A stretch of 64,000 nt of DNA from Oscillospiraceae bacterium (GTDB lineage: Bacteria > Bacillota > Clostridia > Oscillospirales > Oscillospiraceae): positions 62,001 through 126,000 of the forward strand of contig SVLS01000001.1 of assembly GCA_015067835.1 (NCBI GenBank), given 5' to 3'. How positions within the stretch are numbered: the first letter of the stretch is position 1; the number at the start of each line of letters is the position of its first letter. Made by a program: the position numbers and the translations under genes. The notes under the pieces are model-generated. The model did no database searches. It was given only the letters and a program-made list of their open reading frames with translations, and was not told the DNA's origin. Shown piece after piece: positions 13,133 through 64,000 of this stretch.

Positions 13133-13232
13133 ATTTTTTGTGCCTCCACGGTCTATGCGCAATGGGCGCAGCGACAGATTCTATAATATCGTCCTTATTA
13201 TAGCACACCTTTCCGCAAAAATCCACACTAAC

Positions 13233-49655: not shown

Positions 49656-50796
49656 ATGCAAAAAATTTGAGAATTTCATCCTTGGTGGCGCGCACCGTTC
49701 CCTGCTGGAAATGGGGTTTTCCTCCTCCCCGTCCGTTCAGCGTTTCACACATAGTCTTGTTCAGCTGCCGCAGGTCTCCCTCACGCTGGGCAAGGCAGTA
49801 GGCGTAATTTCCCTCTGTGCCGGAGAAAACCGCCACCCGTCCATTGCAAACCCGGGCAATCTTATCCGTCACATAGCGCAGCGCATTGCCATCCAGTTCC
49901 GGCTCAAAATGAAGCACCTCTGCGCAGTTTACATAACTTTCTGCAACACCATCCAAAATCCGGTTCTGCAGACCGATTGCGCGGCTTTTTTCTGCTGCCA
50001 GGGCCTCATTCATCTTCTGTGCCGCTTCTCCCGTGTTGTTCATCGGTGCAGAAAACGCCTGAGAAACACGGCGGTTTTCTTCAAAAACTGTCACAATATG
50101 GCGGTAAGCACGCTTGCCGCACACCAACTCCATCCGGATGCCGCCGCGCAGCGATACACAGGAGAGAATCTTAATCAGCCCCACTTCACCGGTGTGCTTG
50201 ACATGGACACCGCAGCAGGCGCAGCTGTCATACCCGGGAACCTGAACAATCCGAACCGGCCAGGGCAAGGCTCGCTTGGTGCGGTAAAAGACTCCCGGCA
50301 GCTCTTCCGGGGTGGGTATCCAGCATTGAAGGGGAATATTCGCCCAAACGGCTTCGTTGGCCTTTCTCTCGATTTCAGCCAAATCCTCCGACGAAACCGG
50401 TCCGTCGAAATCCACTTCCATCGCATCCGCTCCCACATGGAAGCCGGTGTTCATATATCCGAATTTATCGTGAATAAGTCCGGAGATGATATGCTCGCCT
50501 GTGTGCTGCTGCATCAGATCAAAGCGCCGCTCCCAATCGATTTCTCCCGTCACGGTTTCACCAACCGGTAAGGGACTGTCGCACAGATGGAGGATTTCCC
50601 CCTCTTTTTCCTGCACATCCAGCACCTTTGCGCCTGCCAGAACACCCAAATCCGGTGCTTCGCCGCCGCCCTCGGGATAGAAAGCTGTGGCATCCAGAAC
50701 CACTTGATAACCGCCCTCCACCGGAGTGCACCGCAGCACCTTCGCTGAAAAACAGCGCAGGTGACTGTCCTCATAATATAGCTTCCGTGTTTCCAT
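49654..50796 (-). CDS. alaX: alanyl-tRNA editing protein, AlaX-L type
   Basis: A 380-residue free-standing editing enzyme related to the C-terminal half of AlaRS; it hydrolyses Ser- or Gly-tRNA(Ala). The zinc/editing motifs are QQHTGEHIIS near residue 95 (HxxxH) and SCACCGVHV near residue 193 (CxxxH). The last 130 residues are DHHA1-like, ending in the glycine-rich motif NGRGGGKPHFQQG. Same strand as DUF2284 and phosphatase genes. Confidence 0.88.
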   Translation of the reverse strand: METRKLYYEDSHLRCFSAKVLRCTPVEGGYQVVLDATAFYPEGGGEAPDLGVLAGAKVLDVQEKEGEILHLCDSPLPVGETVTGEIDWERRFDLMQQHTGEHIISGLIHDKFGYMNTGFHVGADAMEVDFDGPVSSEDLAEIERKANEAVWANIPLQCWIPTPEELPGVFYRTKRALPWPVRIVQVPGYDSCACCGVHVKHTGEVGLIKILSCVSLRGGIRMELVCGKRAYRHIVTVFEENRRVSQAFSAPMNNTGEAAQKMNEALAAEKSRAIGLQNRILDGVAESYVNCAEVLHFEPELDGNALRYVTDKIARVCNGRVAVFSGTEGNYAYCLAQREGDLRQLNKTMCETLNGRGGGKPHFQQGTVRATKDEILKFFA

Positions 50797-50799
50797 CGC

Positions 50800-51342
50800 T
50801 TACTCCTTAAAAAACAGCAGAGAGAACCAGGTTACCACATTTTCTCCGTACTGAAATTCCAGTCCCAGTTTTTCCAGCAGGGGCAGGATATTGATGCCGT
50901 GGCTTTCCACGCAGGGATGCATTTTTTCCGGGAAGCGGCAGGGCTGTCCATCCAGAAAAGAACATCGTTCGCACAGGGTACAGGCTTCTGTAGACAAAAC
51001 ATAGGGCTCTACCCCACGCAGAAGCATCTGCCGCTGCACCTGATTGGTTACTGCCTCGTGAGCCGGGCGTGTTGCCAGCGTTTCATCAATATTGGTAATA
51101 TCCGAAACCTCTGTGATGGTTGCAATCATCAAACAGCTGTCAAATTTGGCACAACGGCTGGCACATTCCGACACCGTTCCTACCGCCGGAGGGCAAGCCC
51201 AGCTTTTGCCGTACATCGGGCATTCCTGGGTGCAAATCCAGCGGATTCTCTCGGAAAATTCCAGCTCAGCGGGGTCGATGAAATCATAAAAATACAGAGG
51301 CAGCTCCTGCAAGCTTTCCAGCAATTCAGCTCTGTCCATCAT
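50800..51342 (-). CDS. DUF2284 metal-binding protein
   Basis: A 180-residue Cys-rich protein of the DUF2284 family: CTQECPMYGKSWACPPAVGT near residue 38 and CTLCERCSFLDGQPCRFPEK near residue 120 carry nine or more Cys, probably an iron-sulfur or zinc cluster. Function unknown. Two adjacent ATG codons can serve as start; the first overlaps the stop of the phosphatase gene. Confidence 0.85.
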   Translation of the reverse strand: MMDRAELLESLQELPLYFYDFIDPAELEFSERIRWICTQECPMYGKSWACPPAVGTVSECASRCAKFDSCLMIATITEVSDITNIDETLATRPAHEAVTNQVQRQMLLRGVEPYVLSTEACTLCERCSFLDGQPCRFPEKMHPCVESHGINILPLLEKLGLEFQYGENVVTWFSLLFFKE

Positions 51343-51770
51343 CCCAACTCCTTCAAAATCCGCTGACAGCCTTCTAAAATATCAGCGTAGCTCTCATCAA
51401 AATTTCCACAGTACCAGGGGTCTGCCACATCTCTGTTTAATAAGGGGCGGCATTTACCTGCACCGTCGCCAAACATTCTGCGCAGATACCGGGCATTGGA
51501 GGCATCCATATAGTAAATATGTTCAAAATGTGCCAAATCTGCAGCCGTTATCTGCCGGGCTCGCCGGCTTTCGTAAGGGACGCCGTGGCGCTCCAGCTCC
51601 CGTCGGGCGGGGGGATAGATGGCGTTCCCCTCCTCCTCCCGGCTCACCGCCACGGAGGCAATTTCAAATTCCCCGGATTTCCCCGCCTTTGCCACCAAAT
51701 CCTTTAATACGAATTCCGCCATAGGACTGCGGCAAATATTGCCGTGGCAGACGAAAAGTACCTTGATCAT
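51339..51770 (-). CDS. low-molecular-weight protein-tyrosine phosphatase
   Basis: A 143-residue LMW-PTP. The P-loop CHGNICRS (Cys8, Arg14) opens the protein, and the catalytic Asp is in NRDVADPWY near residue 115. It hydrolyses phosphotyrosine or phosphoarginine. A degenerate second copy of its 5' end lies at 52809-52847. It has its own promoter and is coupled to the DUF2284 gene. Confidence 0.92.
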   Translation of the reverse strand: MIKVLFVCHGNICRSPMAEFVLKDLVAKAGKSGEFEIASVAVSREEEGNAIYPPARRELERHGVPYESRRARQITAADLAHFEHIYYMDASNARYLRRMFGDGAGKCRPLLNRDVADPWYCGNFDESYADILEGCQRILKELG

Positions 51771-51796
51771 GCTATTTCCTCACTTTCGTTGGGGGT

Positions 51797-51825
51797 ATTA
51801 TAGCACGGCAGCAGCAAAAAAGCAA
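51797..51825 (-). promoter_or_regulatory. promoter of the phosphatase-DUF2284-alaX run
   Basis: Minus strand TTGCTT (51820-51825), 17-base spacer, TATAAT (51797-51802). Confidence 0.6.
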
Positions 51826-51966
51826 TAAAGGCTTCCCTTGGGGGAAGGCTTTTTGGGTGCGGAACAAATACCCGACAGCATAGGTATAAAAATTCCGCTA
51901 CCTGTATCATAGTCGAATTTACGGCTATGGGCGGGCAGCGATAATTTATGGGGGAATCAGAAAATC

Positions 51967-51995
51967 TTGATTTCTGTGTGCTATCGGAGTATAAT
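51967..51995 (+). promoter_or_regulatory. promoter of the histidine phosphatase gene
   Basis: TTGATT (51967-51972), 17-base spacer, TATAAT (51990-51995). Confidence 0.7.
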
Positions 51996-52028
51996 TTTGG
52001 AGGATAACTAAATTGGGAGGTGGTTATA

Positions 52029-52634
52029 GTGAAGCTGATTTTTGTTAGGCACGGCAAAGACGATGATAGATATCGTGGTGGATGGAGCAAGTTGGACTTG
52101 ATTCCAGAGGGTGTAGAGCAAGCCAAACAACTGGCAAAACACCTTAAAGAAAACAACGGTGAATATAAAATTGGGCGTATCATTTCAAGTGATTTACCCA
52201 GAACTATGACTACAGCCAAATTTATATCCGCAGAATTAGGAATAGCTATCCAAGAGGAATCTCGGATAAGAGAAACCAACAACGGGGATTTGGCAGGTAT
52301 GTTGAATGATACTGCACTTGAACAATATCCAGGGTTATTCTTTAATTCATTAAGAATGGATGAGGCATACCCAAATGGAGAGAGTCCGCAAGATTTCTAT
52401 TTGCGAATCAAACAGTGGTTTTGGGCGTTCTGCTCCGAATACCAAAATACGGACGATAATATTTTGATTGTCACACACGGTGGAGTCATCAATGTTATTT
52501 ACCATCTGGTAGCGGGTATCGAATGGAGCAATAAAAGCCATGCGTTCAAAGCAGCTAATTGCAGCGTTCATATCTTGGATGTGGATGCTATGGAATTTGA
52601 AGTAGAGAACAGAACGGATTTCTTAATTGTATAA
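52029..52634 (+). CDS. histidine phosphatase superfamily protein
   Basis: A 201-residue phosphoglycerate-mutase-like phosphatase. The RHG motif is FVRHGKDDD at residues 5-13 with the catalytic His8; a second His is in IVTHGGVINV near residue 152; the acid is in RIRETNNGDLAG near residue 83. GTG 52029 is used, with GGGAGG 8 bases ahead. The gene is clearly more AT-rich in codon choice than its neighbours to the left, a sign of acquisition. It lies between the intact and the broken phosphatase 5' ends. Confidence 0.88.
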   Translation: MKLIFVRHGKDDDRYRGGWSKLDLIPEGVEQAKQLAKHLKENNGEYKIGRIISSDLPRTMTTAKFISAELGIAIQEESRIRETNNGDLAGMLNDTALEQYPGLFFNSLRMDEAYPNGESPQDFYLRIKQWFWAFCSEYQNTDDNILIVTHGGVINVIYHLVAGIEWSNKSHAFKAANCSVHILDVDAMEFEVENRTDFLIV

Positions 52635-52652
52635 TTGCCGAGAGAAAATAAA

Positions 52653-52690
52653 GCAGCCGCCGACCTGATGGTCGGCGGCTGTGCTTTTTC
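52653..52690 (+). terminator. terminator after the histidine phosphatase gene
   Basis: AGCCGCCGACC-TGAT-GGTCGGCGGCT with TGCTTTTT. Confidence 0.85.
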
Positions 52691-52808
52691 GTGTCATGTT
52701 GGGGCAAAATGTGGTTATTTTGAAAAGTAGTATGCCAGTAGTACAAATGGGGCAAACCCGTTGCAAAGGGTGGTATAGCATTGCATAGCTTGGTATGCCG
52801 CTGCTGGG

Positions 52809-52847
52809 TCAAATCTTGCCATGGCAAACAAATAAGATTTTTACCAT
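52809..52847 (-). pseudogene. 5' remnant of a second LMW protein-tyrosine phosphatase gene
   Basis: Behind an RBS (AAGGAG, 9 bases ahead) the frame reads MVKILFVCHGKI and then a stop. This matches the first 12 residues of the intact enzyme at 51339-51770 (MIKVLFVCHGNI) up to the P-loop, after which similarity fades. Such a fragment, ending in the most conserved codons of the gene and next to integrase sequences, looks like an attachment-site relic. Between 52691 and 52808 I see no gene. Confidence 0.65.
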
Positions 52848-52993
52848 CTTATGAATCTCCTTAAAAGCACCGGATTTCTTCTTAAATCCTTGTATTTGCG
52901 CCCCTTCCACTGCCTAAATGTTAGGGACGCTTTTCGTATCTTCTCAAATCTTCTCGTTTCTTTTCATGCTTTCACGGACAACTTTGGTAAAAA

Positions 52994-53022
52994 CGTTGGT
53001 AAAAATAAAGAGTTTACCAACG
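52994..53022. repeat. inverted repeat between integrase remnant and phosphatase remnant
   Basis: CGTTGGTAAA (52994-53003) and TTTACCAACG (53013-53022) around a 9-base loop, directly after the stop of the integrase remnant. TTGGTAAAAA recurs just to the left. It may be the transcription end or part of an attachment site. Confidence 0.5.
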
Positions 53023-53024
53023 GT

Positions 53025-53103
53025 CTATCTGCCGGCTACCCGCAGGAGTTCCTGCTTCGCATCATCGAATTGAACGTGCGTGTAGGTGTTCAGCGTGGTG
53101 AAT
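53025..53103 (-). pseudogene. C-terminal remnant of a tyrosine recombinase (integrase)
   Basis: About 25 codons in one frame read FTTLNTYTHVQFDDAKQELL and then RVAGR-stop. This is the typical extreme C-terminus of Tn916/phage-type integrases; the Tyr in NTYTH is the position of the catalytic nucleophile. The rest of the gene is missing: the frame closes at the stop codon of the serine recombinase gene, which lies immediately upstream. It is evidence for an older element, interrupted or replaced here. Confidence 0.7.
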
Positions 53104-53104
53104 A

Positions 53105-54787
53105 TCAACAATCCTCACATGATGGTGTACTGAGATACTTTTTCTCAGGTGGTGGGGTTTTGTCGATCAGTTTGTAGTAGATGTGGATTTCTCGTGGTTC
53201 CTTGCTGTATTTGCCGGGGCATTTGTCTACCGTTACGAACTCGATCAGCTCCATACACATCTCACGAGTAAGTGTGGGAATGGTCAGATAGGTTTTCAGC
53301 CGAGAAATAAATTCGTCAACGTTTGCCCTTTCCTTCGTGATGTCAGCCTGTCTTTTTTCGATCTCGGAGCGTTCATTTTGCAGTTTCAGCTTCTCTGCCT
53401 GATAGTTCTCTAAAAGACCGACACAAATATCCTCGGGAATCTTGCCGCTGACCTTATCCTCATAAACAGACGAGATCAGTTTGTCAAGTTCTGCCGCTCT
53501 GCGAAGGATCTGACTTATTCGCTTTCTGTCCCACATGGCTTCCTCGGCCGAAACAAGATCGCACCGTTTCAGAAATGCCACCCTCACTTCCGATTCGTCA
53601 GTTTCTACAAGCTGTATCTTGGAACGAATGTCCTCCAATACGATCTGTTCCAGCGTTGCCATCTTGATGTAATGACTGCAACAGGAACGCCCTTGGAACT
53701 TTGTGTAGCTACCGCAGTTGAAATGGTTGCGGTGGTAGGTGCGCGGATCGGTTCGCTTATGTCGGGTGTTGTTCCAGCCCGAGTGCATTTTTGCTCCGCA
53801 GTCCGCACAGTAGGCAAGTCCCGAAAGAGGCAGTACTACGCCCGTGCGGTTCTTCTTACCTTGGCTTACCGAGGCTTCCATCTCACGGCACTTGTCCCAC
53901 AGTTCTTGGCTTACAATGGCTTCGTGGGTGTTATACACCCATACCATATCCTCCGGATCACGTTTCACGGTTTTCTTGTTCTTATAGGACAGAGTAGTCG
54001 TCCGCATCTGCACAAGATGTCCGAGATAGGTGGGATTGGTGAGAATCTGCTTGACCGTTGCACAAGACCAAAGATGATGGGATTTTCTCGTGTTGGGGAT
54101 CCCAAACTTTTCTTCCTTGTAATCGGCAGGCGTTTTGATACCTTCTTCGTTCAAGGCATCCGCGATCTTGTTTGGGCTGATACCCTTTGCACGCATTTCA
54201 AACATCCGAAGCACGTAGCTCGCCGCCGGCTCGTCACGCACGGGAAGCTTGTTTTCGTCGTTTCCCTTAACGTATCCGTAAGGCGCGGCATTTGCCCGAT
54301 ACTTTCCCGATTTAGCGTTGGTTTCGATGACGGCGCGGATCTTCTTACTGGTGCTTGCCGTGTGCCATTCATTAAACACGTTCATAATCGGCATCATATC
54401 CATACCGGCATTTTCGGTATTTGCCGAATCCACGTTATCACCGAGAGCGATAAAACGGATGTTGTGCATGGGGAAAATATAATCGGTGTACTGTCCCACC
54501 TCAATATAGTTTCTTCCAAAGCGGCTGAGATCCTTGACGATAATAACGTTAATCCTGCCGGTCTTGGCATCCTCAAGCAGCCGCTTTACCTCCGGTCTGT
54601 TGAAGTTGGTGCCGCTCCATCCGTCGTCGATATACTCGTCGATCACGGTAAAGCCCTGTTCGGCAGCGAACTTACGAAGCATCAGCTTTTGGTTCTCGAT
54701 GGACAAGGACTCACCGGCACGCTCATCGTCTTTGGACAATCGGTAATATAGCCCTGCGTTTTTATTCTGTTGTTGCTTTGACTTCAT
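53105..54787 (-). CDS. large serine recombinase (TnpX/TndX type)
   Basis: A 560-residue site-specific recombinase. The resolvase domain has the catalytic Ser18 in YYRLSKDDERAGES and the conserved IVKDLSRFGRNYIEVGQY near residue 85. The recombinase domain spans about 160-290 (PYGYVKGNDENKL, ATVKQILTNPTYLG). A zinc ribbon (YCADCGAKMHSG to GRSCCSHY) near 325-375 and a coiled coil near 425-505 follow. Start 54787 is used because AAGGAGG lies 6 bases ahead and the -10 overlaps the earlier ATG at 54832. Such enzymes excise and insert mobilisable elements of the Tn4451 type. Confidence 0.92.
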   Translation of the reverse strand: MKSKQQQNKNAGLYYRLSKDDERAGESLSIENQKLMLRKFAAEQGFTVIDEYIDDGWSGTNFNRPEVKRLLEDAKTGRINVIIVKDLSRFGRNYIEVGQYTDYIFPMHNIRFIALGDNVDSANTENAGMDMMPIMNVFNEWHTASTSKKIRAVIETNAKSGKYRANAAPYGYVKGNDENKLPVRDEPAASYVLRMFEMRAKGISPNKIADALNEEGIKTPADYKEEKFGIPNTRKSHHLWSCATVKQILTNPTYLGHLVQMRTTTLSYKNKKTVKRDPEDMVWVYNTHEAIVSQELWDKCREMEASVSQGKKNRTGVVLPLSGLAYCADCGAKMHSGWNNTRHKRTDPRTYHRNHFNCGSYTKFQGRSCCSHYIKMATLEQIVLEDIRSKIQLVETDESEVRVAFLKRCDLVSAEEAMWDRKRISQILRRAAELDKLISSVYEDKVSGKIPEDICVGLLENYQAEKLKLQNERSEIEKRQADITKERANVDEFISRLKTYLTIPTLTREMCMELIEFVTVDKCPGKYSKEPREIHIYYKLIDKTPPPEKKYLSTPSCEDC

Positions 54788-54830
54788 TCTTTCCTCCTTG
54801 TCAGTCAAAGCCACTAGATTTTGTTCTTTC

Positions 54831-54859
54831 ATTATACAATATTTTCACGGCTAAATCAA
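54831..54859 (-). promoter_or_regulatory. promoter of the serine recombinase gene
   Basis: Minus strand TTGATT (54854-54859), 17-base spacer, TATAAT (54831-54836). The -10 runs into an ATG at 54830-54832, which therefore cannot be the main start. Confidence 0.75.
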
Positions 54860-54893
54860 GAAGCCGACCGTGTTTTCTGTCGTTTGTTCGAAA

Positions 54894-55094
54894 TTAGTTT
54901 GGTTTTTCGGATACTGTTATTGCCTCATAAGCCTGTTGTGTCGCCAATTTTCTTATCACTGCATCAATATCCTTTTCACCGGCATAATGGCTCACAACGG
55001 TGTAGGCAATGCCTTCGATGGTATAAACGCTTGCCTTTGACGGTTTATCCGCAAAGCGTTCCCGAAGCTCCTGCAACGTTGTATTTTGTTTCAA
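54894..55094 (-). CDS. TnpW-like small transposon protein
   Basis: A 66-residue protein (TLQELRERFADKPSKASVYT, then GIAYTVVSHYAGEKDIDAVI) with a TTG start and AGGAGG 8 bases ahead. It resembles the short TnpW-family proteins found next to recombinase genes in clostridial mobile elements. Function is unknown. It precedes the serine recombinase gene on the same strand, which supports the assignment. Confidence 0.6.
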   Translation of the reverse strand: MKQNTTLQELRERFADKPSKASVYTIEGIAYTVVSHYAGEKDIDAVIRKLATQQAYEAITVSEKPN

Positions 55095-55308
55095 TAGACA
55101 ATCCTCCTTCCTGAATTCTGGTACAGAGAAAGACTAAAAGGCAGCCTTCCGAATTCAAGTAAGAAGATAGCCGAAATAAAAAAAGAATCAAGAAAACTTA
55201 TTGCAAAGCAAGATTTCTCGAAGAAAATAGCAATATGACACGCAATGTCCTACAACAAATTGTGCGTTCATTCTCGTGACGAAAAAGAATGTTCTGACCA
55301 AAATAGCT

Positions 55309-55441
55309 GTCCCATTGACGTATCCCATTTAACTTTCCGAATGGGATGCTGCCGCTTCATTTGAATGGGATAAGACGAAAGTTGCAAATGGGATATCCCA
55401 TATAAACCGAACCAATGCACCCCCAATGGGATATCCCATTG
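55309..55441. repeat. iteron block A: ATCCCATT / AATGGGAT half-sites
   Basis: Eight half-sites in about 130 bases: TCCCATT at 55310, ATCCCATT at 55323, AATGGGAT at 55340 and 55364, the near-palindrome AAATGGGATATCCCAT at 55386, and the perfect 18-bp palindrome CAATGGGATATCCCATTG at 55424-55441. Single further copies lie near 55721, 55814 and 57384. Looks like a binding array for a dimeric DNA-binding protein. Confidence 0.8.
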
Positions 55442-55886
55442 AGAAAGAAAGGACAGACTCCGAAAGAGCGAAAAATACAGTTGGGAACGTTTTTGAAACA
55501 CAGAGTCCCCCTTATAGATTACATATCGATTATCCTACCTTTCCGTATAAAAAGCGTTCAAAATCCACGGATTAGTGTATTGAAAGCAGTAGCAGGTTCG
55601 CTGTAAATCCTTCTCAGGGGGGATAATCTGTTCTAATATGATTTCAATAATATCTTCTTTAAAAATCGTCTGTCCGATTGAAATGATAAAAGATTGAGAG
55701 TTTTTGGGCGTGGATTTGCTGTCCCATTGAAAGTATTTTCGGTGCCCAAAATGAACGGTCATTTTGCTTATGAGTTTACCCTTCAAAATTACACAAGTGA
55801 CCTTCAAATTCTCCTATCCCAATGACAAGAAAAATGATACTCAAATTGAGAGATAACAGAGGGTAAAATATCCCCTTTCCATCCCC

Positions 55887-56152
55887 TCATATCAATACGA
55901 GGTCGTAGTCATTTCGATAGGAGAGTTTTCATCGAAAATTGTATTAATAAGAGAGTGTCTGAAAAAAATCAAGTTCAAATCAATTAAAAAATCCATTAGG
56001 ATCATCATATCAATACGAGAGTGGTTGCAATCATATCCATATGAAAGTGTCCGGAAATAATCCAAGATGAATCCAAATGATGATTGTCATATCGATAGGA
56101 AAGGTGGGCGAAGTCACTTTTGATATGAGAGTAGTCATATCCATAGGAAGGG
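55887..56152. repeat. iteron block B: TCATATCNATANGARAG units
   Basis: Eight degenerate copies at about 55887, 55908, 55941, 56005, 56031, 56087, 56116 and 56134, for example TCATATCAATACGAGAGTG and TCATATCCATAGGAAGGG. All point the same way, with spacing from 17 to 60 bases. The repeats are not identical and the spacing is irregular, so this is not a CRISPR array. Confidence 0.75.
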
Positions 56153-56423
56153 CAAATTTGGCATAGAGAAGGGAAAAGCATATATAACTTTGGTGTGCGG
56201 TGAAATAGAAAATCATGCCAATGGGACGGCGCACATATTCCCGCAAAAGGCAAGGGCAAACCCCGACCAAGTGAATCACAATGTTTGCTCAATGAACTGA
56301 TGATTTCGGCTACGCTACCGCACAGACGGGAGGGCAACCCTCAACAGAGAGGACGGCTGACCAATTCAAGCAAGACAATCCCGAACCGCAACCCCTCTGG
56401 CTGCCCGTGCGAAAGTGAGGGCG

Positions 56424-56916
56424 ATTTTAGTCAAGAGAATAGGGACTGTGCGCCGTACGATCAGATACCGTCCCGCAGAATCGCCTCCAAGCCCTCGTAA
56501 CGAAAAATCTACTTTGGTCACGAAATCAAAATCAGGGATGACAGATAAATCAGATAAGGAAGGAACCCTGCCACGACCTCTTGACAAAAAATATATTTTC
56601 GTCAAGAAAGGCACTACATCCGAGCAAACGCTGCCACTTCAGACGACTGGGCAGCGAGCAGACTGCCGTGAGCGGGTTTTCACTTTTCGTCAAGAGCTTT
56701 TCCGAAGGGCGACAGTTTTTCCGATCCGCTGCTCGTCGCAGCGAGCTTCACCCATCTTGAATTTTCGTACAGAACAAATCCGTTAAGGCGAATCCGCCTC
56801 TCCTGCCGCCTGAACGCCGGTGCGAAATTCGGGCGAAATTTTCGTCAAGAAATGAGAAAGCCCGTGACATTGGGGTCGTCACAGGCAAAAAAAGCGATTC
56901 TCTTGACGAAAATCGC
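56424..56916. repeat. repeat block C: TTTTCGTCAAGA in both orientations
   Basis: Copies: TTTTAGTCAAGA (56425), a pair in inverted orientation TCTTGAC (56579) and GTCAAGA (56601), CTTTTCGTCAAGAGC (56683), AAATTTTCGTCAAGA (56836), and TCTTGACGAAAA (56899). The last sits inside a hairpin with AGCGATT/AATCGCT arms (56892-56916). Confidence 0.7.
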
Positions 56917-57036
56917 TCCGTTGTTTATTAACGTCGCAGATCTGCCACGGGTCTGCGTGCGGTGCAGTATGGATACTGTCTGCGAGTTATGCGGCTTGGC
57001 TTGCGGCCCATTCTCTTTAATGGGAATGAATGACCG

Positions 57037-57103
57037 TCATTTGAAAAAGCCTTGTAGATTTATTTTTGATTTATGACGGATTTATCCGTTCATTTTCAAA
57101 TGA
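57037..57103. repeat. 11-bp inverted repeat
   Basis: TCATTTGAAAA (57037-57047) and TTTTCAAATGA (57093-57103) are perfect complements 45 bases apart, in a gene-free stretch. Confidence 0.6.
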
Positions 57104-57268
57104 TGCCGGAACCTCGTTTTAGGTATGGCGGGTTAACCTTCCTTTCGGAATGACAGGGATAGCATTCCTCTATGATTGTCCCACTTCCTCATTTCGGAAG
57201 TAGGGGGATTTACCTCTTATCATAACGAAAAAGAGTATCATCTTTTTTAACATTCTAAAGGGGGAAAT

Positions 57269-57302
57269 AATGGGGGAATTGAGAAATTCCAATTCCCCCA
57301 TT
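57269..57302. repeat. 12-bp-arm perfect inverted repeat
   Basis: AATGGGGGAATT (57269-57280) and AATTCCCCCATT (57291-57302) around a 10-base loop, without a T-run on either side. Possibly an RNA structure or protein-binding site; it ends the iteron region. Confidence 0.65.
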
Positions 57303-57341
57303 GTTTTCGGGCTGTCAGAGGTGTCGTATCTGCTGTCGTAC

Positions 57342-57374
57342 CGCGAAAAATTGACCGCCGATAGCTCGGCGGTC
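57342..57374 (-). terminator. terminator of the AP2/zinc-ribbon gene pair
   Basis: GACCGCCGA pairs with TCGGCGGTC around TAGC, followed on the minus strand by AATTTTTC. It lies 30 bases after the stop at 57405. Confidence 0.75.
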
Positions 57375-57404
57375 GGGAAAGTACTGTCAATGGGATCGCA
57401 GTTT

Positions 57405-58370
57405 TTAGACTATCAACGGTAAAAATACAACTGACAGCTCGCTTGTGCTTTTCTTTGATACGATGATTTCCACCGGATTATTCGCTGCCCTTTCGGGATC
57501 GGCATCAGCTTTTATCTTCCATCGCTCATAATGTGCTGTAGCTCCGTCAAAGAGCAGTTCCTCGGCTTCTTTCCGAGCTTCGGCCGCTTCCTCAATATTG
57601 TCATATACGCCGAGATAGTATGCTTTTTTCTGAAACACGATCTTTGCCACATACTTGCCCTTAATAAGGTACACGCCACGATAGCCGGTGGTATTATCAT
57701 TGGGGACTTTTTTGCTGCGAATCATATCCAGTGATGTGCCGTTTACGTGGGTTAAGTAAGTCGATAGGCTTTGTTCATGCTCACGTCGCTGACAACCGCA
57801 GCTCTGCATCCTGCTATACATCAGCCAGTTATATGGGATGTCCACCTCGTTTCCGCACTCGCACTTGCAATGCCAAACGACACCACCCTTGCGATCACGG
57901 TCTTTAAGAGGATATTTTGCTGTTAACCGTCCGAACTGTCGGTCGGTAATATCTGCAGAGTAATACTGAGGGTCTGCCTTGCAGCCACAATGCGTTTTTC
58001 TGCCGGTCACAAGCAGTGAGGCAAGCACATCTATCTCATTCCCGCAGGAGCATCTGCAATGCCACCATACACCGCCACGAGCATCCTTTGGATGATCCTT
58101 GGCTATATTCAGCACTTCAAGCTCACCGAAGGTCTTGCCGTGCAGATCGTATGCATTGGCTTTAGCACTGTTTATCCGTGTCAAGCATCCGCAGCTCTTG
58201 GTTCCACCGTGAAGCAAGCTGCGCTCCAATATGTATTTCTCTGTACCGCAATCACAGAGACACAACCACTTGCGTTCCTGACGGTTGCGGGTATTCCTTA
58301 TCGTGATATAATCTCCGATCACAGTCAACTGTCCGAAATGTTGATTTTTCAGATCTTTAACCTTATTCAT
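57405..58370 (-). CDS. three tandem zinc-ribbon-like modules plus C-terminal AP2 domain
   Basis: A 321-residue protein. Three repeats of about 65 residues each follow the scheme G-x-L-x-V...W-x-C-x-C-x-CG...CGC: WLCLCDCG...SCGC (near 35-58), WHCRCSCG...HCGC (near 102-125), WHCKCECG...SCGC (near 165-188). An AP2-type DNA-binding domain follows (GYRGVYLIKGKYVAKI, YYLGVYDNIEEAAEARKEAE, near 228-275). ATG 58370 has GGAG 6 bases ahead and overlaps the stop of the paralogue upstream. No nuclease motif is seen. Likely a sequence-specific DNA-binding protein of the mobile element. Confidence 0.75.
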   Translation of the reverse strand: MNKVKDLKNQHFGQLTVIGDYITIRNTRNRQERKWLCLCDCGTEKYILERSLLHGGTKSCGCLTRINSAKANAYDLHGKTFGELEVLNIAKDHPKDARGGVWWHCRCSCGNEIDVLASLLVTGRKTHCGCKADPQYYSADITDRQFGRLTAKYPLKDRDRKGGVVWHCKCECGNEVDIPYNWLMYSRMQSCGCQRREHEQSLSTYLTHVNGTSLDMIRSKKVPNDNTTGYRGVYLIKGKYVAKIVFQKKAYYLGVYDNIEEAAEARKEAEELLFDGATAHYERWKIKADADPERAANNPVEIIVSKKSTSELSVVFLPLIV

Positions 58371-59010
58371 TCGCGGCTCCGACCTTTTCAAGGAACGCTC
58401 CATACAGATCTTCCTCCGCACGTTGTCGTGCTTTAATGGCATCCTCAATATTCTTATACGTTCCCAAATAATATCTCTTTCTTTGGAAGATGATTTGCGC
58501 TCGGTATCGGTCGAACTTGGATTCATAATAGATTCCACGGTATCCGCTTGTATTGGCAGCACTGGGAGTCATATCCCTGATCTTGGAGAGCTGCGTTCCC
58601 TCTACGAAGCCTGCGGACTTCCGTGCGATTTCTGCTGCAAATTTGCCTTGGCAATCCCGGCACATACTTTCGTCGGGATTGGTAAGAGTATCCGTTGCTT
58701 TATAAGTGATATTGCCGCATTCGCAACGACACTCCCACATGGGCGTTGTTCGAGCACCACGAGGGTTTCTTTTATCGGAGCGTCCAAGTACTGTGAGCTT
58801 GCCGAATACTTTCCCCGTTAGGTCGGGAGACTTCTTGCATCCGCAGTTCGTTGATCTACCGCTGTTAAGATTTCCGCTTGTGGCGATATGCTCACCGCCG
58901 CAGTCGCACTTGCAAAGCCATCTGCGCTGGCCACGTGCGGTAGATGGTAGTTGTGCTACAACCGTTAGTTTTCCAAATCGTTTCCCAATAAGTGATGGAA
59001 ATTCTCTCAT
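58363..59010 (-). CDS. two tandem zinc-ribbon-like modules plus C-terminal AP2 domain
   Basis: A 215-residue paralogue of the next gene. Two modules (WLCKCDCGG...NCGC near 32-58; WECRCECGN...CRDC near 90-122, the last altered) precede an AP2 domain (GYRGIYYESKFDRYRAQI, YYLGTYKNIEDAIKARQRAE, near 158-205). Start 59010 is chosen for AAGGA at 9 bases. The pair is co-transcribed and probably arose by duplication with gain or loss of one module. Confidence 0.75.
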   Translation of the reverse strand: MREFPSLIGKRFGKLTVVAQLPSTARGQRRWLCKCDCGGEHIATSGNLNSGRSTNCGCKKSPDLTGKVFGKLTVLGRSDKRNPRGARTTPMWECRCECGNITYKATDTLTNPDESMCRDCQGKFAAEIARKSAGFVEGTQLSKIRDMTPSAANTSGYRGIYYESKFDRYRAQIIFQRKRYYLGTYKNIEDAIKARQRAEEDLYGAFLEKVGAANE

Positions 59011-59024
59011 TTTCATCCGTCCTT

Positions 59025-59068
59025 TATAAAAAGCCATTCCGACACATACGGCGACGGAATGGCTTTTT
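59025..59068 (-). terminator. hairpin in front of the AP2 pair (terminator or attenuator)
   Basis: AAAAGCCATTCCG (59029-59041) pairs with CGGAATGGCTTTT (59055-59067), with a T-rich end on the minus strand directly before the RBS of the AP2 gene. Termination for the preceding gene is likely; attenuation of the AP2 pair is possible. Confidence 0.6.
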
Positions 59069-59091
59069 CGATCACCGATTGACGGTATCGT

Positions 59092-59427
59092 CTATTTCTT
59101 ATTGCTTTCTTTACGGCTGAGTTCTACGGCACGGAGAATTTTGGCATGGGATAGAGTTTCCCGTTCCGTTGCCTCACGTTGTTTCTTGGCACACTCAGCA
59201 CAGACCTGGCCAAGCCCGACCTCATAATTTTCACGCCAATCTATCGGCATGGAAACGGGAATGCAGGTCACTTGACCGCACAAGATACACCTTTCGTATT
59301 CTTCTTTTATGGGAGCTTCGCTCACGCTGCCGACCTCCTTTTTAGAAGGCTGACAGGGTGTACCCCCTCCCCCGAAAAATTGGGATATTCTGGTAAATAT
59401 GCCGTTTTGCTTATCTTTTTTTGCCAT
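59092..59427 (-). CDS. small double-CxxC protein of unknown function
   Basis: A 111-residue protein. A basic, glycine-containing N-terminus is followed by RCILCGQVTC near residue 46 and VCAECAKKQ near residue 75, a four-Cys zinc knuckle with 25 residues between the pairs, then a charged helix (REATERETLSHAKILRAVEL). RBS is weak. It lies between the surface operon and the AP2 pair. No homologue is recognised. Confidence 0.6.
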   Translation of the reverse strand: MAKKDKQNGIFTRISQFFGGGGTPCQPSKKEVGSVSEAPIKEEYERCILCGQVTCIPVSMPIDWRENYEVGLGQVCAECAKKQREATERETLSHAKILRAVELSRKESNKK

Positions 59428-59501
59428 ATATGTTCGCTACTTTCTGATTTTGCTGTTTTGTGAATGACAGCCCACCCAACAGGGGATGGGCTGTCTTGAC
59501 G

Positions 59502-60941
59502 TTATATTCTGCTGCGTTTTCTGTCGTAAACCGTAAGGGCTACAAGTGCAGATCCACTGACGATCATCACAATGAACCACAGCGTGAGGTTGGAGTTATC
59601 TCCGGTTGGAGGTGATACAGGTGTGTCTGCATCGTAGGTGTTCTCAAACGTTGCATTCAAAGCATTTACGCTCTTGCCGTCCATCGTGAGAGCTGCGACC
59701 AGCTCATTGTTTTCGTTCAGAGATACAGTGATGGTGATCTCGTGAACGTCCGCATCGTAGGTCATTCCCGCAAAGCCCTGATTTGTTTCGGAGAGCTTAT
59801 AGGTATAGGTCTTGCCGATATCTGCCTTTGTAAAGGTCAAAGAGAAGGAAGATTTACCGTCATCTGCAGAAGTTACTCCCAAGCCTTCGGAGGTTTCGGT
59901 GTTCTTCAGCACAAATTGGAAACCGCCTTTTCCGTGGGTAGCTTCGCCGACATTGTTGACGATCTTATCAACGCCGATCTGCACAGTAATGGGATCGGGA
60001 TCGGGGACAACGGGAGGAACGAAGGTATTGTTGAACGTCACGGAAACTACGTAGCCATCGTTTGTTTTGGTCACGGCTGCATTCTCGGTGCTTGTAACGG
60101 TATTGATCTCCAGCTTGCCGTCCATGTCCACGTCGGTCACCTTAACGGTAAAGTGGTTGACGGTCTTGTCGTAGTCAACGTTCTCCAGTGTTCCGACAAC
60201 CTCGCTCATGCGGAAGGAGTATGTACCGACCTCGTCAAAGGTCAAAGCCTTAAATACATCGCTGAAATCAAACTTACTGAAATCGGCGTTTTCTGCATCG
60301 TAGGTTACGGTCTGTTCACCGAGCTTGGTCCAGCTCTCTCCGTCCTTCTGTTCCAGTACGAAGGAGAAGCTGTCGCCGACCTGCCACTGGCGGCCTTCCA
60401 AGACCTTGACACCGCTGACGGTGACGTTGCTCGGCTTCACGGCATCGGGAGTGTAGGTGTTTATGAAGCTGATGCTTGCCGTGCCGTCTGCTCCGACGGT
60501 TACCGTCTTGGTTGCGTCGCCCTTCACAGCAAAGCCGTCGAGGGTGGTCATTTTCTCGGTTACCTTTACAACCGTTTCTTCTTCAAGACCTTCAATGCCA
60601 AAGGTTGCACCGGGCTTGATGGTAACACTCAACGTGCCGCTTGCGTCGGCGGTCATTTCTCCGGCGGTAGTATTCAGTTTTGTGCCTGCATAATAGGCAC
60701 CAAGCTCGACGTTGAAGTCGAAGCTGATATTGTCGGGGATGGCATAATCATCACCCAGGGGATGCTCCACCGTCTTGTTGATCGCCAGACCGCTTACGCC
60801 TGCCGTGCCGGGAACGAATACGTTGGTGATCGGGTCTGTTTTCGTCACGATATAGCAGTATGTGGTGCCGATCGTCGAGGTGATCAGCATCACAAGCGAC
60901 AGCAGCATCGCTATTCTTCTTATTATTTTGCCTGTTCTCAA
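59502..60941 (-). CDS. pilin-like surface protein with isopeptide-type repeats and sortase tail
   Basis: A 479-residue secreted protein. The signal/anchor helix spans residues 8-30. Three repeats of the FctA/Spy0128-like type follow (about 45-165, 168-315, 320-440), each ending in a SFxNTY/TFxNTF-like motif (ISFINTYTP, VTFNNTFVP, ATFENTYDA), with Lys residues near the start of repeats (AINKTVEH, VSGVKVLEG, GVDKIVNN) suitable for isopeptide bonds. The C-terminus is a cell-wall sorting signal: PPTGD (444-448), a hydrophobic stretch and DRKRSRI. TTG start with AGGAGG 9 bases ahead. Last gene of the surface operon. Confidence 0.82.
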   Translation of the reverse strand: MRTGKIIRRIAMLLSLVMLITSTIGTTYCYIVTKTDPITNVFVPGTAGVSGLAINKTVEHPLGDDYAIPDNISFDFNVELGAYYAGTKLNTTAGEMTADASGTLSVTIKPGATFGIEGLEEETVVKVTEKMTTLDGFAVKGDATKTVTVGADGTASISFINTYTPDAVKPSNVTVSGVKVLEGRQWQVGDSFSFVLEQKDGESWTKLGEQTVTYDAENADFSKFDFSDVFKALTFDEVGTYSFRMSEVVGTLENVDYDKTVNHFTVKVTDVDMDGKLEINTVTSTENAAVTKTNDGYVVSVTFNNTFVPPVVPDPDPITVQIGVDKIVNNVGEATHGKGGFQFVLKNTETSEGLGVTSADDGKSSFSLTFTKADIGKTYTYKLSETNQGFAGMTYDADVHEITITVSLNENNELVAALTMDGKSVNALNATFENTYDADTPVSPPTGDNSNLTLWFIVMIVSGSALVALTVYDRKRSRI

Positions 60942-60989
60942 ATTTATCTGCCTCCTGTGTTAAGGAACTATCTATTAATCATCCGTTGT

Positions 60990-61059
60990 CGGTAATCAAA
61001 AGATACAAACCGATTTTGTATCCTTTGATTGCCGCCTATCCCTCACAGAGAGGGATAGG
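60990..61059 (-). other. two-hairpin intergenic structure, copy 2
   Basis: On the minus strand, after the stop at 61074, hairpin B (CCTATCCCTC/GAGGGATAGG, 61036-61059) is followed by a long hairpin A: CGGCAATCAAAGG... paired with ...CTTTTGATTACCG (60990-61034), about 20 bp with one mismatch. Same order and similar hairpin A sequence as at 63058-63120. Confidence 0.65.
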
Positions 61060-61073
61060 ACGGACTTTATTTT

Positions 61074-62963
61074 TTAATTGTTAGGATAAACAACGGTTAC
61101 TCCGTCATAGGTCTTGAGACCGGAAACACCCTGTCCACCGCCAAACAACTGATCGAACACGATAAGTACATTATGCGACTCGTCAGCATCGTGGTTGCAG
61201 GTGGAGAGATCAATGCCGTCCGTGCCGGTACCTGCTTCAACACGAGCGTACTTATATTCGCCGGGGCCATTATAGCTGCCGGCACCAAGGCTCTCAAATT
61301 CACAATAATGGTAGTTTACCCAATCACCATAGATAACCTTTACGTTTTCACAAGTAACGTATCCGGAGGGATCAGCAACTCCATTCACACCGTCAACATG
61401 ACCGATCAGCATACCGCTGTAGCGGTAGAGCCAATACTGGTAGTTCGCTGCAACGTCATTGATTGCATCAAGCTGGCAAGCAACAGTAATGTCCTTGAAA
61501 GTTACGTTGTTTCCGGCTTGAACCATACCTACCACACCGCCAAGACGGACATCGTAGGTGCCCCAAAGGGGTCCGATAACGGTATCTTTATCAACCGTAA
61601 TATTGGTGAAAGAGCAATTACCATAGCATTCAGCTGCTACACCACCTGCAGAGTTGTTATACGCGATCAAAGTGGTATTGGAAATTGTGATATCAGAGAA
61701 TGTAGTATTAACTGCATTACCGACAACGCCCGCCGCTTCATTTCTGCCGCTGGAGATGTATGCATCAGCAATTGTTACATTCTTAATGGTAGCACCGTTG
61801 GTATAAGCGAAAAGACCGTAGTATTCGCCCTCATACTGCCATGCGGAAAGGTCACTCTGTTCGTACATATTTGAAATTGTGTGTCCCTGACCGTCAAAAG
61901 TGCCGTTAAAGGACTTGCCGTTGCTGGAATGACCGATGGGGTTAAAAGGCAATCCGGCAAGGTCTAAATCTTTGCCAAGTTTTACAGTCTTGCCTGCAAA
62001 ATTGTTACCACCATCAACCAGTTCTGCCAAACCTGCAAGCTGTTCAGCCGTGGTCAGGGTGAACTCGGTATCGGTGTCGTTGTACCAGGTGGTATCAACA
62101 CTACCGTCCCATAAATCGGGAACGTGCTTTGCCCATACGCCGTTAAACCACTCAGCAGCCTTTTCAGAGGACTTACCAAAAGCAGTATCGAGAGCAGTCT
62201 TAGCATCTGCAAAGCCGGCAGCCTGAACAGCCTGAGAAAGAACGAGGATATCGAGGGTGCCGTTGCCGTTACCGTCGAGCTTTACCATGTCCTCGTTGGT
62301 AGCTGCAGCGGAGATATAAACCTGAGACAGGTTGGGGTAAGAGGTATCGCCTGCAGGCAGGATGCCGTACTGATGTCTCCAAGTGCCATCGGTCAGCTCA
62401 CCACCTTCGTAAGCATACTCGATCAATACGTATGTATTGCCATCGATGGTAATCTCACCGATTTCGGTTTGGTTCCAAGTGCTGTGATAAGAGGTTCCGA
62501 TCAGAGAACCGTCTGCAGAACCAATCTCAATGGCAACGAGAGTACGGATATAAGCGTCGGTCTTGCCGGTGTTCTCGACAGTAACAAACTTATCCTGTGC
62601 ATTAGAAGCGGCCTTGAAGACATTCATTCCGCCGTAAGAGTCAACCTGAGTCATACGGACAATAGTGGAATCCCAACCCCAACCGGAACCGTTGGTAACA
62701 AGCGCGGAAGGCAGCAGGGGCTTGCCCTGAGTGAAGTCCTTCAGCACGTAGCTGGTTACACCGTCGATCTCTTTGGTTTCGTAAGAGCCATCGGTGTTGG
62801 TCGCACGCTCATACTCGTGCTGATCAATGGACACGTTGCCGAGGGTCATTACGTTTACGTCGCTATCGGTATCCTGTAAGTATGCAATGGTGCCGCCGAT
62901 AGCAAGCGCGGCAACAAGCACGTATGCGGTACACATTAAGAGTACCTTTTTCATTTTTGACAT
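61074..62963 (-). CDS. SipW-type signal protein with GLUG-like repeats
   Basis: A 629-residue exported protein. The N-terminus (LVAALAIGGTIAYLQDTDSD, then NVMTLGNVSI) is the SipW-dependent, TasA/CalY-like signal type. Residues about 60-275 form a domain shared with the next upstream gene (FVTVENTGKTDAYIRTLVAI; LDGNGNGTLDILVLSQAV). Residues about 320-560 carry beta-solenoid, GLUG-like repeats (FDGQGHTISNMY, GLFAYTNGATIKNVTIADAY, AAGVVGNAVNTTFSDITI). No sortase motif is present. ATG 62963 has AAGGAGG 9 bases ahead. Probably part of a surface fibre or adhesin. Confidence 0.8.
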   Translation of the reverse strand: MSKMKKVLLMCTAYVLVAALAIGGTIAYLQDTDSDVNVMTLGNVSIDQHEYERATNTDGSYETKEIDGVTSYVLKDFTQGKPLLPSALVTNGSGWGWDSTIVRMTQVDSYGGMNVFKAASNAQDKFVTVENTGKTDAYIRTLVAIEIGSADGSLIGTSYHSTWNQTEIGEITIDGNTYVLIEYAYEGGELTDGTWRHQYGILPAGDTSYPNLSQVYISAAATNEDMVKLDGNGNGTLDILVLSQAVQAAGFADAKTALDTAFGKSSEKAAEWFNGVWAKHVPDLWDGSVDTTWYNDTDTEFTLTTAEQLAGLAELVDGGNNFAGKTVKLGKDLDLAGLPFNPIGHSSNGKSFNGTFDGQGHTISNMYEQSDLSAWQYEGEYYGLFAYTNGATIKNVTIADAYISSGRNEAAGVVGNAVNTTFSDITISNTTLIAYNNSAGGVAAECYGNCSFTNITVDKDTVIGPLWGTYDVRLGGVVGMVQAGNNVTFKDITVACQLDAINDVAANYQYWLYRYSGMLIGHVDGVNGVADPSGYVTCENVKVIYGDWVNYHYCEFESLGAGSYNGPGEYKYARVEAGTGTDGIDLSTCNHDADESHNVLIVFDQLFGGGQGVSGLKTYDGVTVVYPNN

Positions 62964-63057
62964 ATATGTATGCCTCCTTTTGATATTTGCCTGCATTTAA
63001 GTCTTAACTTTCCTTCGATAATGCAGGCTTTATATCGAAGAAAGCGTTTTGCCTTTC

Positions 63058-63120
63058 GGCAATCAAAAGGTACAAGACTCGCTTATGCCCTTTGATTACC
63101 GCCCATCGAAAGCCGATGGG
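63058..63120 (-). other. two-hairpin intergenic structure, copy 1
   Basis: On the minus strand after the stop at 63130: hairpin B (CCCATCG/CGATGGG, 63102-63120), then hairpin A (CGGTAATCAAAGG... paired with ...CCTTTTGATTGCCG, 63058-63101). A further stem (CTTCGATA/TATCGAAG, about 63013-63040) follows before the RBS of the next gene. No terminator T-run. Confidence 0.65.
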
Positions 63121-63129
63121 TGGCTGTTG

Positions 63130-63840
63130 TCATTCCATATTCCACGGTTTGCTTACCTGACTCCACGCACCGTCATCGCTGACTACCTGGCTGTAGGCGC
63201 GAACCTCGTACTTGCCGTCGTGGTTTCCGTCAAGTCTGTTGGCGGTGTCATTTGCCACATCGCTCTTGAGTAGAATTTGCAGAAGGTTGGGAGACGTGGT
63301 CGCTCCACCGTCAAGTGCAGTGTTGTATTTGGCGCATACCACTGCATAACGCACACCGCCGATCTGTACACCGTAGGTGAATTCGCCCCAAGTCCACTGG
63401 GCGGAATTTTGATTGAGAAGCACCGATGCCTTGAATTCGTCCTCGGTGAGATTGCCCATCTCGAAAGCGAACCAGGTGCGGACGTAACCGATGTGATTGC
63501 CGGCATTGGTGATCACCACGATGTGATCCAGCACGTTCTCGACGGTGTACAGATCCGCATTAACCGAAAGATTCACATTAACCGTATGATTCTTTTTATC
63601 CGTCACTATGAACTGATCCGTAAGCTGCACGGCTTGCTTTTTCAGTTCCACATCGGTTACGGGTAACAACTTCCGATCATCGGCAACCTCTGTCAGACCG
63701 GAGCCGCTTCGATCCAACTCCGACTGCACGATACATAAGTGTTTTCCGTCGGAGCTTTGGTCACCGAGAGAGCCGTTAATAGCAACTACAGTCAGCATTG
63801 CCAAAAGCACTGTAATGCCGATCCATTTAAGGGTTTTCAA
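63130..63840 (-). CDS. small exported protein sharing a domain with the SipW-type protein
   Basis: A 236-residue protein with an N-terminal signal/anchor helix (WIGITVLLAMLTVVAINGSLG). Residues about 90-225 parallel the domain in the downstream protein: DHIVVITNAGNHIGYVRTWF, FEMG, SPNLLQILL, and RLDGNHDGKYEVRAYSQVV. TTG 63840 is preferred because GGAG lies 8 bases ahead; upstream ATG/GTG codons fit the RBS less well. Likely a minor subunit of the same surface structure. Confidence 0.65.
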   Translation of the reverse strand: MKTLKWIGITVLLAMLTVVAINGSLGDQSSDGKHLCIVQSELDRSGSGLTEVADDRKLLPVTDVELKKQAVQLTDQFIVTDKKNHTVNVNLSVNADLYTVENVLDHIVVITNAGNHIGYVRTWFAFEMGNLTEDEFKASVLLNQNSAQWTWGEFTYGVQIGGVRYAVVCAKYNTALDGGATTSPNLLQILLKSDVANDTANRLDGNHDGKYEVRAYSQVVSDDGAWSQVSKPWNME

Positions 63841-63854
63841 CACTTCATCTCCAT

Positions 63855-64000
63855 TCATCCATCGTTTCGGTATCGGACAAACGGTATGATGGAGAGCCAC
63901 AAGCGCCGTTTTTGCCGTTTCCAATAGCGCTGCTCGCTGCCGTCTGTTCTGCCGATCTCACTGTTCAAGTATTTCAGTTCGCCACTAAAGTCATTCAGCC
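63855..64000 (-). CDS. C-terminal part of an upstream operon gene (runs off the window)
   Basis: The last 47 residues are visible (ELKYLNSEIGRTDGSEQRYW, KRQKRRLWLSIIPFVRYRND). The stop lies 14 bases before the next start, so it belongs to the surface operon. Its position in front of SipW-type substrates makes a dedicated signal peptidase plausible, but no catalytic motif lies inside the window, so the identity is open. Confidence 0.5.
   Translation of the reverse strand, partial: LNDFSGELKYLNSEIGRTDGSEQRYWKRQKRRLWLSIIPFVRYRNDG

Follow-up and report, generated by a model that had tools for sequence, protein, structure and literature searches.

The function of a gene-free stretch of about 2.2 kb, which carries three families of short repeats beside a serine recombinase gene, is the question raised by a locus of an Oscillospiraceae bacterium (GenBank assembly GCA_015067835.1, contig SVLS01000001.1, positions 62,001–126,000). 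These 64,000 nucleotides form the window to which plain coordinates refer; loci fetched for comparison carry L numbers, and genomes carry G numbers. The gene-free stretch spans the DNA from a small open reading frame (ORF) at 54894–55094 to a terminator-like hairpin at 57353–57374. The initial annotation described it as three separate, unrelated arrays (A, B, and C) lying side by side, which could be a replication origin, a centromere-like site, or a transfer origin (oriT), or else targets of the neighboring AP2 proteins. The motifs proved to be real, but A and B bracket an AT-rich core as one module, and the region is best read as a control module at the DNA level that is conserved among integrated mobile elements and moves horizontally. 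As a class, an origin, centromere, or transfer origin is favored, in agreement with the arrays in a mobile element, the conserved DNA module, and the AT-rich core between arrays; replication, transfer, and partition are not told apart by these features.

Organization of the Repeat Arrays and the Core

The motifs were counted in the window and in 100 dinucleotide-preserving shuffles of its 64 kb. The A motif AATGGGAT occurs 10 times (2.9 expected), with seven of the copies at 55322–57396. The B pattern has 15 matches at up to three mismatches (2.0 expected), and the C pattern has 28 at up to two mismatches (5.8 expected), 11 of them within the region. Enrichment over the shuffled background was thus found for each motif, as 0 of the 100 shuffles reached the observed count in any of the three cases.

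Block A (55309–55441) consists of half-sites and two palindromes centered on GGGATATCCC, the one at 55388 being separated by 38 bp from the one at 55426. The perfect 18-bp palindrome reported earlier, CAATGGGATATCCCATTG, is present at 55424–55441, and the second palindrome, of 14 bp, lies at 55388–55401. A-like half-sites (CAATGGGAY, up to one mismatch) are spread outside one segment (55309, 55721, 55816, 56219, and 57388). The sites share GGGATATCCC, while their outer arms vary from site to site yet remain complementary within each: arm complementarity at flank positions 3–4 of 16 sites was 0.69 within and 0.31 between sites, a difference reached in 0 of 5000 permutations. This pattern fits binding sites of a dimer, hairpins, or the correction of palindromes by template switching.

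The core (55459–55902), supported by a six-element alignment, nhmmer matches in two independent elements, and base composition, contains the conserved strings CGTTTTTGAAACAC..TCCCCC.., TTGAAATGATA, and AACAGAGGG..ATC. Its GC content is 0.37 in the window against 0.48 for the neighboring genes, and in all seven modules measured the core (0.31–0.38) is poorer in GC than nearby genes (0.41–0.49). Block B (55887–56151, plus strand) follows with directional iterons, TCATWTCRAAANGA and then a weaker AGTCA, spaced mostly by ∼24–25 bp in several relatives. The claim of eight copies in one direction held for the direction and not for the number, as there are six copies at up to two mismatches (55887, 55909, 56005, 56031, 56087, and 56135) and seven at up to three, when 55939 is added; weaker B-like sites (three to four mismatches) occur within the core at ∼55639, 55673, and 55812. 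The two halves of the B sites show no covariation within sites (134 sites with up to four mismatches from 10 loci, some of them chance matches), and such a directional site without arm covariation is as expected of a protein-bound iteron. Iteron-type plasmid origins and the origins of SaPI elements have an AT-rich stretch between repeat arrays, and the two arrays around the AT-rich core thus have the layout of iteron origins: direct-repeat arrays with an AT-rich region beside them.

Block C (56425–56912) comprises TTTTCGTCAAGA-type sites with successive plus-strand copies 77–88 bp apart and one minus-strand copy. Four copies are exact (56596–56912), three on the plus and one on the minus strand, in agreement with the two orientations noted initially. 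C sites are more dispersed than A or B sites; they also occur at 55271–55285 and at L009:8206, close to where the element ends on the right, and in one relative they lie inside genes. With palindromic sites scored on both strands, C-type sites numbered 7 in the non-coding DNA of the window (0.20 expected), 16 at 12200–14150 of L105 (0.07 expected), and 7 within genes of L145 (0.13 expected), against 0–2 (0.2–0.5 expected) in three chromosomal stretches. In L105, sites resembling TTTTCGTNANNAAA recur by eye every ∼60–90 bp through 1.3 kb of non-coding DNA (12736–14075). A half-sites, weak B sites, and C-type sites all occur outside their own blocks, and the description of three unrelated arrays in separate segments holds only in part.

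The covarying arms of the A palindromes might also belong to a large structured non-coding RNA. A stem formed by TTTTTGGGC and GCCCAAAA that stays paired through changes in some elements would agree with this, as would the piece at 57000–57140, which folds better than its shuffles (z −3.0). In consensus folding with RNAalifold, however, the 490 columns yielded −10.2 and −11.5 kcal/mol, and the covariation term was positive (unfavorable) on either strand; the B array (z 0.2 and 0.0) and the core piece (z −0.4) folded no better than shuffles, and no Rfam match was found within 50000–64000 at E values up to 1. A function at the level of DNA is therefore preferred, and an RNA is considered extremely improbable.

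The region is non-coding, as initially stated. In its alignment with L106, the closest relative, mismatches show no codon periodicity (131, 116, and 125 over the three positions), and 12 of the 17 gaps are not multiples of three. In its own genome the region is single-copy, a second short match being a hairpin within the region itself.

Recurrence of the Module in Other Mobile Elements

The closest copy outside the window is that of L106 (genome G337), in which A, core, B, and C follow in the order of the window with 77.8% identity over 1675 aligned bases; the window has a stretch of ∼170 bases that L106 lacks, and L106 in turn has an extra stretch of about that length. Between the two copies, the B sites are 92% identical against 68% for the rest of their block (p 0.03), and the C sites 95% against 86% (p 0.05). 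Block A is only ∼50% identical, yet palindromic in both. When six elements were aligned over the DNA that separates A from B, invariant stretches emerged, and an nhmmer profile built from this alignment detected two elements outside it, L164 (E 6e−26) and L010 (E 1e−9), as well as a partial match in L021 (E 4e−5), with no match in the reversed-sequence control. The core is thus present in eight distinct elements (the six profile members, including that of the window, plus L164 and L010) and partly in L021, and the genomes of the seven elements other than that of the window belong to the same bacterial order as the window. Three loci with B arrays only (L107, L108, and L019) gave no match to the core profile.

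Other searches outlined how sporadic the module is. Among 199 relatives, DNA matches to pieces of the region were retained in G158, G118, G096, and the genome of the window; a match in G054 was an unrelated coding region, and one in G181 found no support on inspection. The pattern of two GGGATATCCC palindromes was found in 5 of 397 genomes, including that of the window, and in 1 of 397 when read backward. Of the genomes so found, G337 is that of L106, G380 reproduces the 38-bp spacing of the window exactly with its three AATGGGATATCCCATT-type sites, and the match in G340 looks like one long hairpin. Pattern searches for the core in two families returned just the copies already known, in 1 of 20 members of one and 1 of 63 of the other, and B clusters lie upstream of just 2 of 57 recombinase relatives (none in the reversed control). 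A search with the L106 module gave apparent matches in 36 of 394 genomes. Twenty-eight of these were confined to the final ∼310 bases of the query and were dropped, because by-eye translation of that end reads like the 3′ end of a gene for NAD synthetase that adjoins the L106 element. The other eight were G337, the genome of the window, G380, and G363, together with weak matches in G383, G370, G385, and G379 (L146–L149), which were rejected for having no A, B, or C cluster. In a search for the empty site of the L106 element, its left end was placed at 7347–7361, and its right end is putative, as the contig stops within the neighboring gene; in G374, the left flank has a different neighbor. In viral contigs, L139 matched the B pattern and was discarded as it has no B cluster; of five contigs matching block A, which were covered by the cluster scan alone, L140 and L142 show A-like groups.

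The gene beside block A differs among the elements. In L106, it is a tyrosine integrase gene accompanied by a 70-amino-acid ORF that matches the profile of the Tn916 excisionase (Xis), and L145 has the same combination. A serine recombinase stands there in the window, in L010, and, as a fragment recognized by eye, in L164; L105 has a CHC2 primase-type zinc-finger ORF, and L011 (by Pfam) and L014 (by eye) have an XRE-DUF3990 gene. As the L106 copy adjoins a tyrosine integrase and an excisionase, the module evidently moves between elements with different recombinases. The conserved blocks for which the initial annotation proposed to search in related genomes are found, but outside its recombinase–AP2 setting: the closest copy is at a tyrosine integrase, and, with B clusters so scarce among the recombinase relatives, a special link to the TnpX-type recombinase is not supported.

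The position of A sites upstream of recombinase or XRE-DUF3990 genes raises the alternative that the arrays are operators, forming a large regulatory region for the flanking operons (of the recombinase on one side and of cargo or defense genes on the other). The palindromes would suit dimeric regulators, and in L145 the module is flanked by inverted promoter-like copies of ∼90 bp (1853–1945 and 3035–3130, by eye) that head divergent operons. In the window, however, both operons are co-directional and the upstream one is closed by a terminator-like hairpin, so 2 kb of operators would exceed the need of one promoter. Moreover, the A sites of L011 and L014 lie ∼35–135 bp upstream of the likely −35 elements (by eye), and the core is conserved regardless of the adjoining gene. 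The operator explanation is hence held to be unlikely.

Proposed Function of the Module

Within the favored class, we tentatively propose, at a confidence somewhat short of even, that the module is the replication or maintenance origin of the element. With proteins bound at A and at B, the intervening AT-rich core would be opened or processed, and the excised element would be copied and maintained, the C sites possibly serving as accessory or partition sites. In the element of the window, the binding proteins would be supplied by a helper element or by the host; dependence on a helper is suggested since the 15 proteins scanned from this element include no match to a Rep, Par, or relaxase family.

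Candidates for such proteins are encoded on the far side of the module, where either cargo, chromosomal DNA, or, in L145 and L164, a three-protein operon is found. This operon (L145:6–1804 and L164:2222–3691) encodes two related proteins and a third of the P0120 family; its proteins have many metagenome homologs and no significant Pfam family. The family adjacent to the module in both loci comprises 119 homologs with no Pfam domain listed. One of them, P0001, which is 96% identical to the L145 protein, was predicted to fold as two beta-alpha-alpha units (mean pLDDT 75.7), and the family can thus be read as a predicted tandem ribbon-helix-helix family; the L164 copy of the gene has an internal stop. 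A search with the ribbon-helix-helix protein gave hits in 1 of 394 genomes of the order and in 2 of 127 in the family of G363, with no viral contig confirmed, and a profile search of solved structures returned nothing useful. P0120, one of five homologs of the next gene that were scanned, has a sub-threshold match to Replic_Relax (14.1 bits against a cut-off of 25.3, E 0.05). The CHC2 primase-type ORF next to block A in L105 also counts in favor of an origin. Together, the predicted ribbon-helix-helix family and the Replic_Relax-like match point to replication, transfer, or partition.

The same neighbors could indicate an oriT, or a mimic of one, through which a conjugative helper mobilizes the element in trans, A to C being the binding sites of a relaxosome. 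Inverted repeats are present in the form of the block A palindromes. The layout of L145 and L164, with predicted ribbon-helix-helix genes, recalls the relaxosome accessory factors described in PMC8136818. Integrative mobilizable elements (IMEs) and mobilizable genomic islands (MGIs) without a relaxase are known (PMC5704250), and L106 seems to consist of an integrase, an excisionase, and the module only. The proteins scanned (15 from the window element and few from the others) nevertheless contained no relaxase family, and no nic-type motif was identified, with no systematic search made for it. The arrays, with up to 11 iterons over 0.3–0.5 kb, are also larger than typical oriT sites. Transfer as the role of the module is accordingly rated rather unlikely.

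The iteron arrays, and the predicted ribbon-helix-helix genes next to the module in two elements, would also suit a partition site of the centromere-like kind, to which ribbon-helix-helix proteins or other adaptors would bind. The dispersed C sites, too, are reminiscent of global partition and regulatory sites, such as KorB sites. A ParA- or ParM-like ATPase is nonetheless missing from the scanned proteins, the ribbon-helix-helix genes are found in two of the eight elements only, and an integrated element requires partition only once it is excised. Partition as the main role is thus regarded as quite improbable.

Several observations weigh against the proposed origin itself. No cognate initiator was found, the Pfam scans of the 15 window-element proteins having yielded no replication initiator, relaxase, or partition family. 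DnaA boxes (TTWTNCACA) are absent in four of seven modules and single in the other three. The module DNA and core strings gave no match to plasmids, phages, or viral contigs, so no known replicon backs the origin. The predicted ribbon-helix-helix family adjoins only 2 of 8 elements, such proteins have roles not only in copy control but also in transfer and partition, and the other four of five scanned P0120 homologs have no Replic_Relax match. In the window, the B sites follow one another at irregular intervals (22, 96, 26, 56, and 48 bp). C-type sites are scarce in the rest of the window element, with one in 57405–64000 and two entries for a single palindrome in L009 1–8250, and they are absent from the integrase segments of L106 and L145.

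The Mobile Element of the Window

The array region lies inside a serine-recombinase element of ∼17 kb, as the Tn916-type integrase gene that forms its target is split into halves ∼17 kb apart, the other half being at L009:8254–9495. The element extends ∼6.3 kb past the end of the window. Its left end was placed at ∼53074–53095, where blastn homology with seven of eight near relatives breaks off and the flanks beyond differ; homology with L019 ends at 53158. The recombinase gene (minus strand; coding sequence 53105–54832, feature 53094–54832) encodes the Pfam domains Resolvase, Recombinase, Zn_ribbon_recom, and DUF4368, and its position at one end of the element conforms to the Tn4451/TnpX type of serine-recombinase element. 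The named relatives of the recombinase are Clostridia, e.g., Oscillospiraceae and Ruminococcus. Between the recombinase and the arrays, the 66-amino-acid ORF at 54894–55094 (minus strand) resembles by eye a small ORF preceding the recombinase in L019 and L021. We take it to be TnpW-like, while Pfam and NCBIfam scans gave no match for it.

The sequence past the element ends is often the C-terminal end of a tyrosine integrase gene. DUF4368 recombinase relatives were often observed inside the tyrosine-integrase genes of other mobile elements, as judged from 17 of 66 downstream flanks, the window counted, by a loose expression (‘..Y(T/A/S/G)H..’) after the element end; 81 flanks were available. 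The matches (window, L016, L017, L018, L020–L024, L028–L030, L032, L034, L037, L041, and L053) belong mostly to the closest recombinase relatives. In L017, whose recombinase is 97% identical, the disrupted integrase is ∼91% identical over 194 bases (L017:1620–1820) to the end of the L106 integrase, so that here a mobile element lies within the integrase of a different one.

Minor features of the gene-free region include a proximal piece (55190–55290) that aligns with L106 and holds, by eye, the promoter-like motif CAAGAAAACTTA together with the C-type site at 55271–55285. A C site spans both the stem and the loop of a terminator-like hairpin at 56891–56919 (minus strand, fold z −3.2). A piece at 57029–57264 (plus strand) contains more B-like sites and shares 72% identity with the DNA that precedes another serine recombinase gene, found in G158, which suggests that this gap holds a second, partial module. 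The hairpin at 57353–57374 (minus strand) follows the AP2-like genes and marks the right limit of the region; the scan for terminator-like sites is by itself weak, with four in the stretch against 2.6 in shuffles.

The genes beyond are all on the minus strand. The description of the neighbors as AP2 proteins was borne out in part: the ORF at 58363–59037 has a Pfam AP2 match below the cut-off (E 9e−5, 23.1 against 33.3 bits), and that at 57405–58562, with repeated CxCG zinc-ribbon-like motifs in its translation, has no significant Pfam match. That the three blocks are target arrays of these proteins is very unlikely. Apart from the adjacency in the window, only L105 offers a parallel, in the form of a different repeated zinc-finger protein (DUF4379) nearby, and inspection of the ORF lists by eye, with no profile scan for AP2, showed no AP2-like gene close to the module in L106, L145, L011, L014, L010, and L164; a special link to AP2 genes is thus not supported. 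Further cargo at 59092–64000 comprises a small cysteine-motif ORF, a protein with an FctA domain (by Pfam), and, from the ORF list, surface-protein genes that we presume to be SipW/TasA-like; their signal peptidase and camelysin Pfam matches fall below the cut-off. Over the whole ∼17 kb element, the cargo consists of the FctA-domain protein, further surface-type proteins, these AP2-like ORFs, and genes for a regulator of the TetR type and for a second tyrosine integrase.

Defense genes, confirmed among ten chosen proteins, occur near two of the eight core-bearing elements, L010 (type I restriction methylase, Mrr, and SEFIR) and L011 (type I restriction and PDC-S72). They were also found at the three loci with B arrays only, as a MmeI-like IIG enzyme in L107, a cytosine methylase and PDC-S46 in L108, and Cas9 in L019. 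In L019 (5300–10006), the recombinase is located at a CRISPR-like repeat (GTTTGAGTCCCC..ACTCTCAAAC) beside the Cas9 gene.

Comparison With Known Systems and Significance

The closest known design is the origin of the PLE phage satellites, a non-coding region with repeats 1–4, repeat 3 being used as an iteron by RepA (PMC7145576). Several repeat families in one gene-free region near an integrase are likewise seen in the window and in L106. Further parallels are semi-palindromic direct repeats, an origin region separable from its initiator, and a minimal element, which in PLE is midiPLE, made of att sites, integrase, and the non-coding region, and with which L106 may be compared. PLE, however, has a RepA_N initiator and replicates upon phage infection (PMC7145576); RepA_N is not among the Pfam matches of the proteins scanned here, the hosts are Clostridia, the recombinase types vary, and the viral collections searched gave no match. 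Iteron plasmid and SaPI origins share the AT-rich stretch flanked by repeat arrays, and the present module differs from them in that no Rep protein was found, DnaA boxes are few, and replication is only putative. The relaxase-less IMEs and MGIs, which have an integrase, a recombination directionality factor (RDF), and a helper-related oriT, and the plasmids with oriT mimics share with the present elements an integrase with an excisionase, a non-coding recognition site, and ribbon-helix-helix accessory proteins (PMC5704250 and PMC8136818); the arrays here are larger, and both helper and nic site are only putative. The recombinase of the window has the same domain architecture, including DUF4368, as those of Tn4451/TnpX elements and as the DUF4368 recombinases described as multi-targeting in PMC10083194. 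It differs in that many members of its clade lie inside tyrosine-integrase genes and in that the array module stands beside a minority of the relatives.

No description of an A–core–B–C module was found in the literature searched, and the listed matches to motif strings looked unrelated by title. The module may define an undescribed satellite-like class in Clostridia that carries only an exchangeable recombinase, an origin with multiple iteron arrays, and cargo that is in some cases anti-phage, and that is replicated or mobilized in trans by helper elements with the tandem ribbon-helix-helix proteins; L106 would be its natural minimal form. We regard this broader proposal as doubtful.

The observation thus extends beyond its first description, as the module is conserved and travels with mobile elements of gut bacteria. 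Were it an origin or mobilization site, its sequence would serve as a tag by which to recognize a group of integrated elements of gut Clostridia whose cargo is for surface proteins or defense and which have no recognizable replication or transfer genes among those scanned. It would then predict helper elements to be sought and would show that elements with serine recombinases and elements with tyrosine recombinases exchange a module for recognition.

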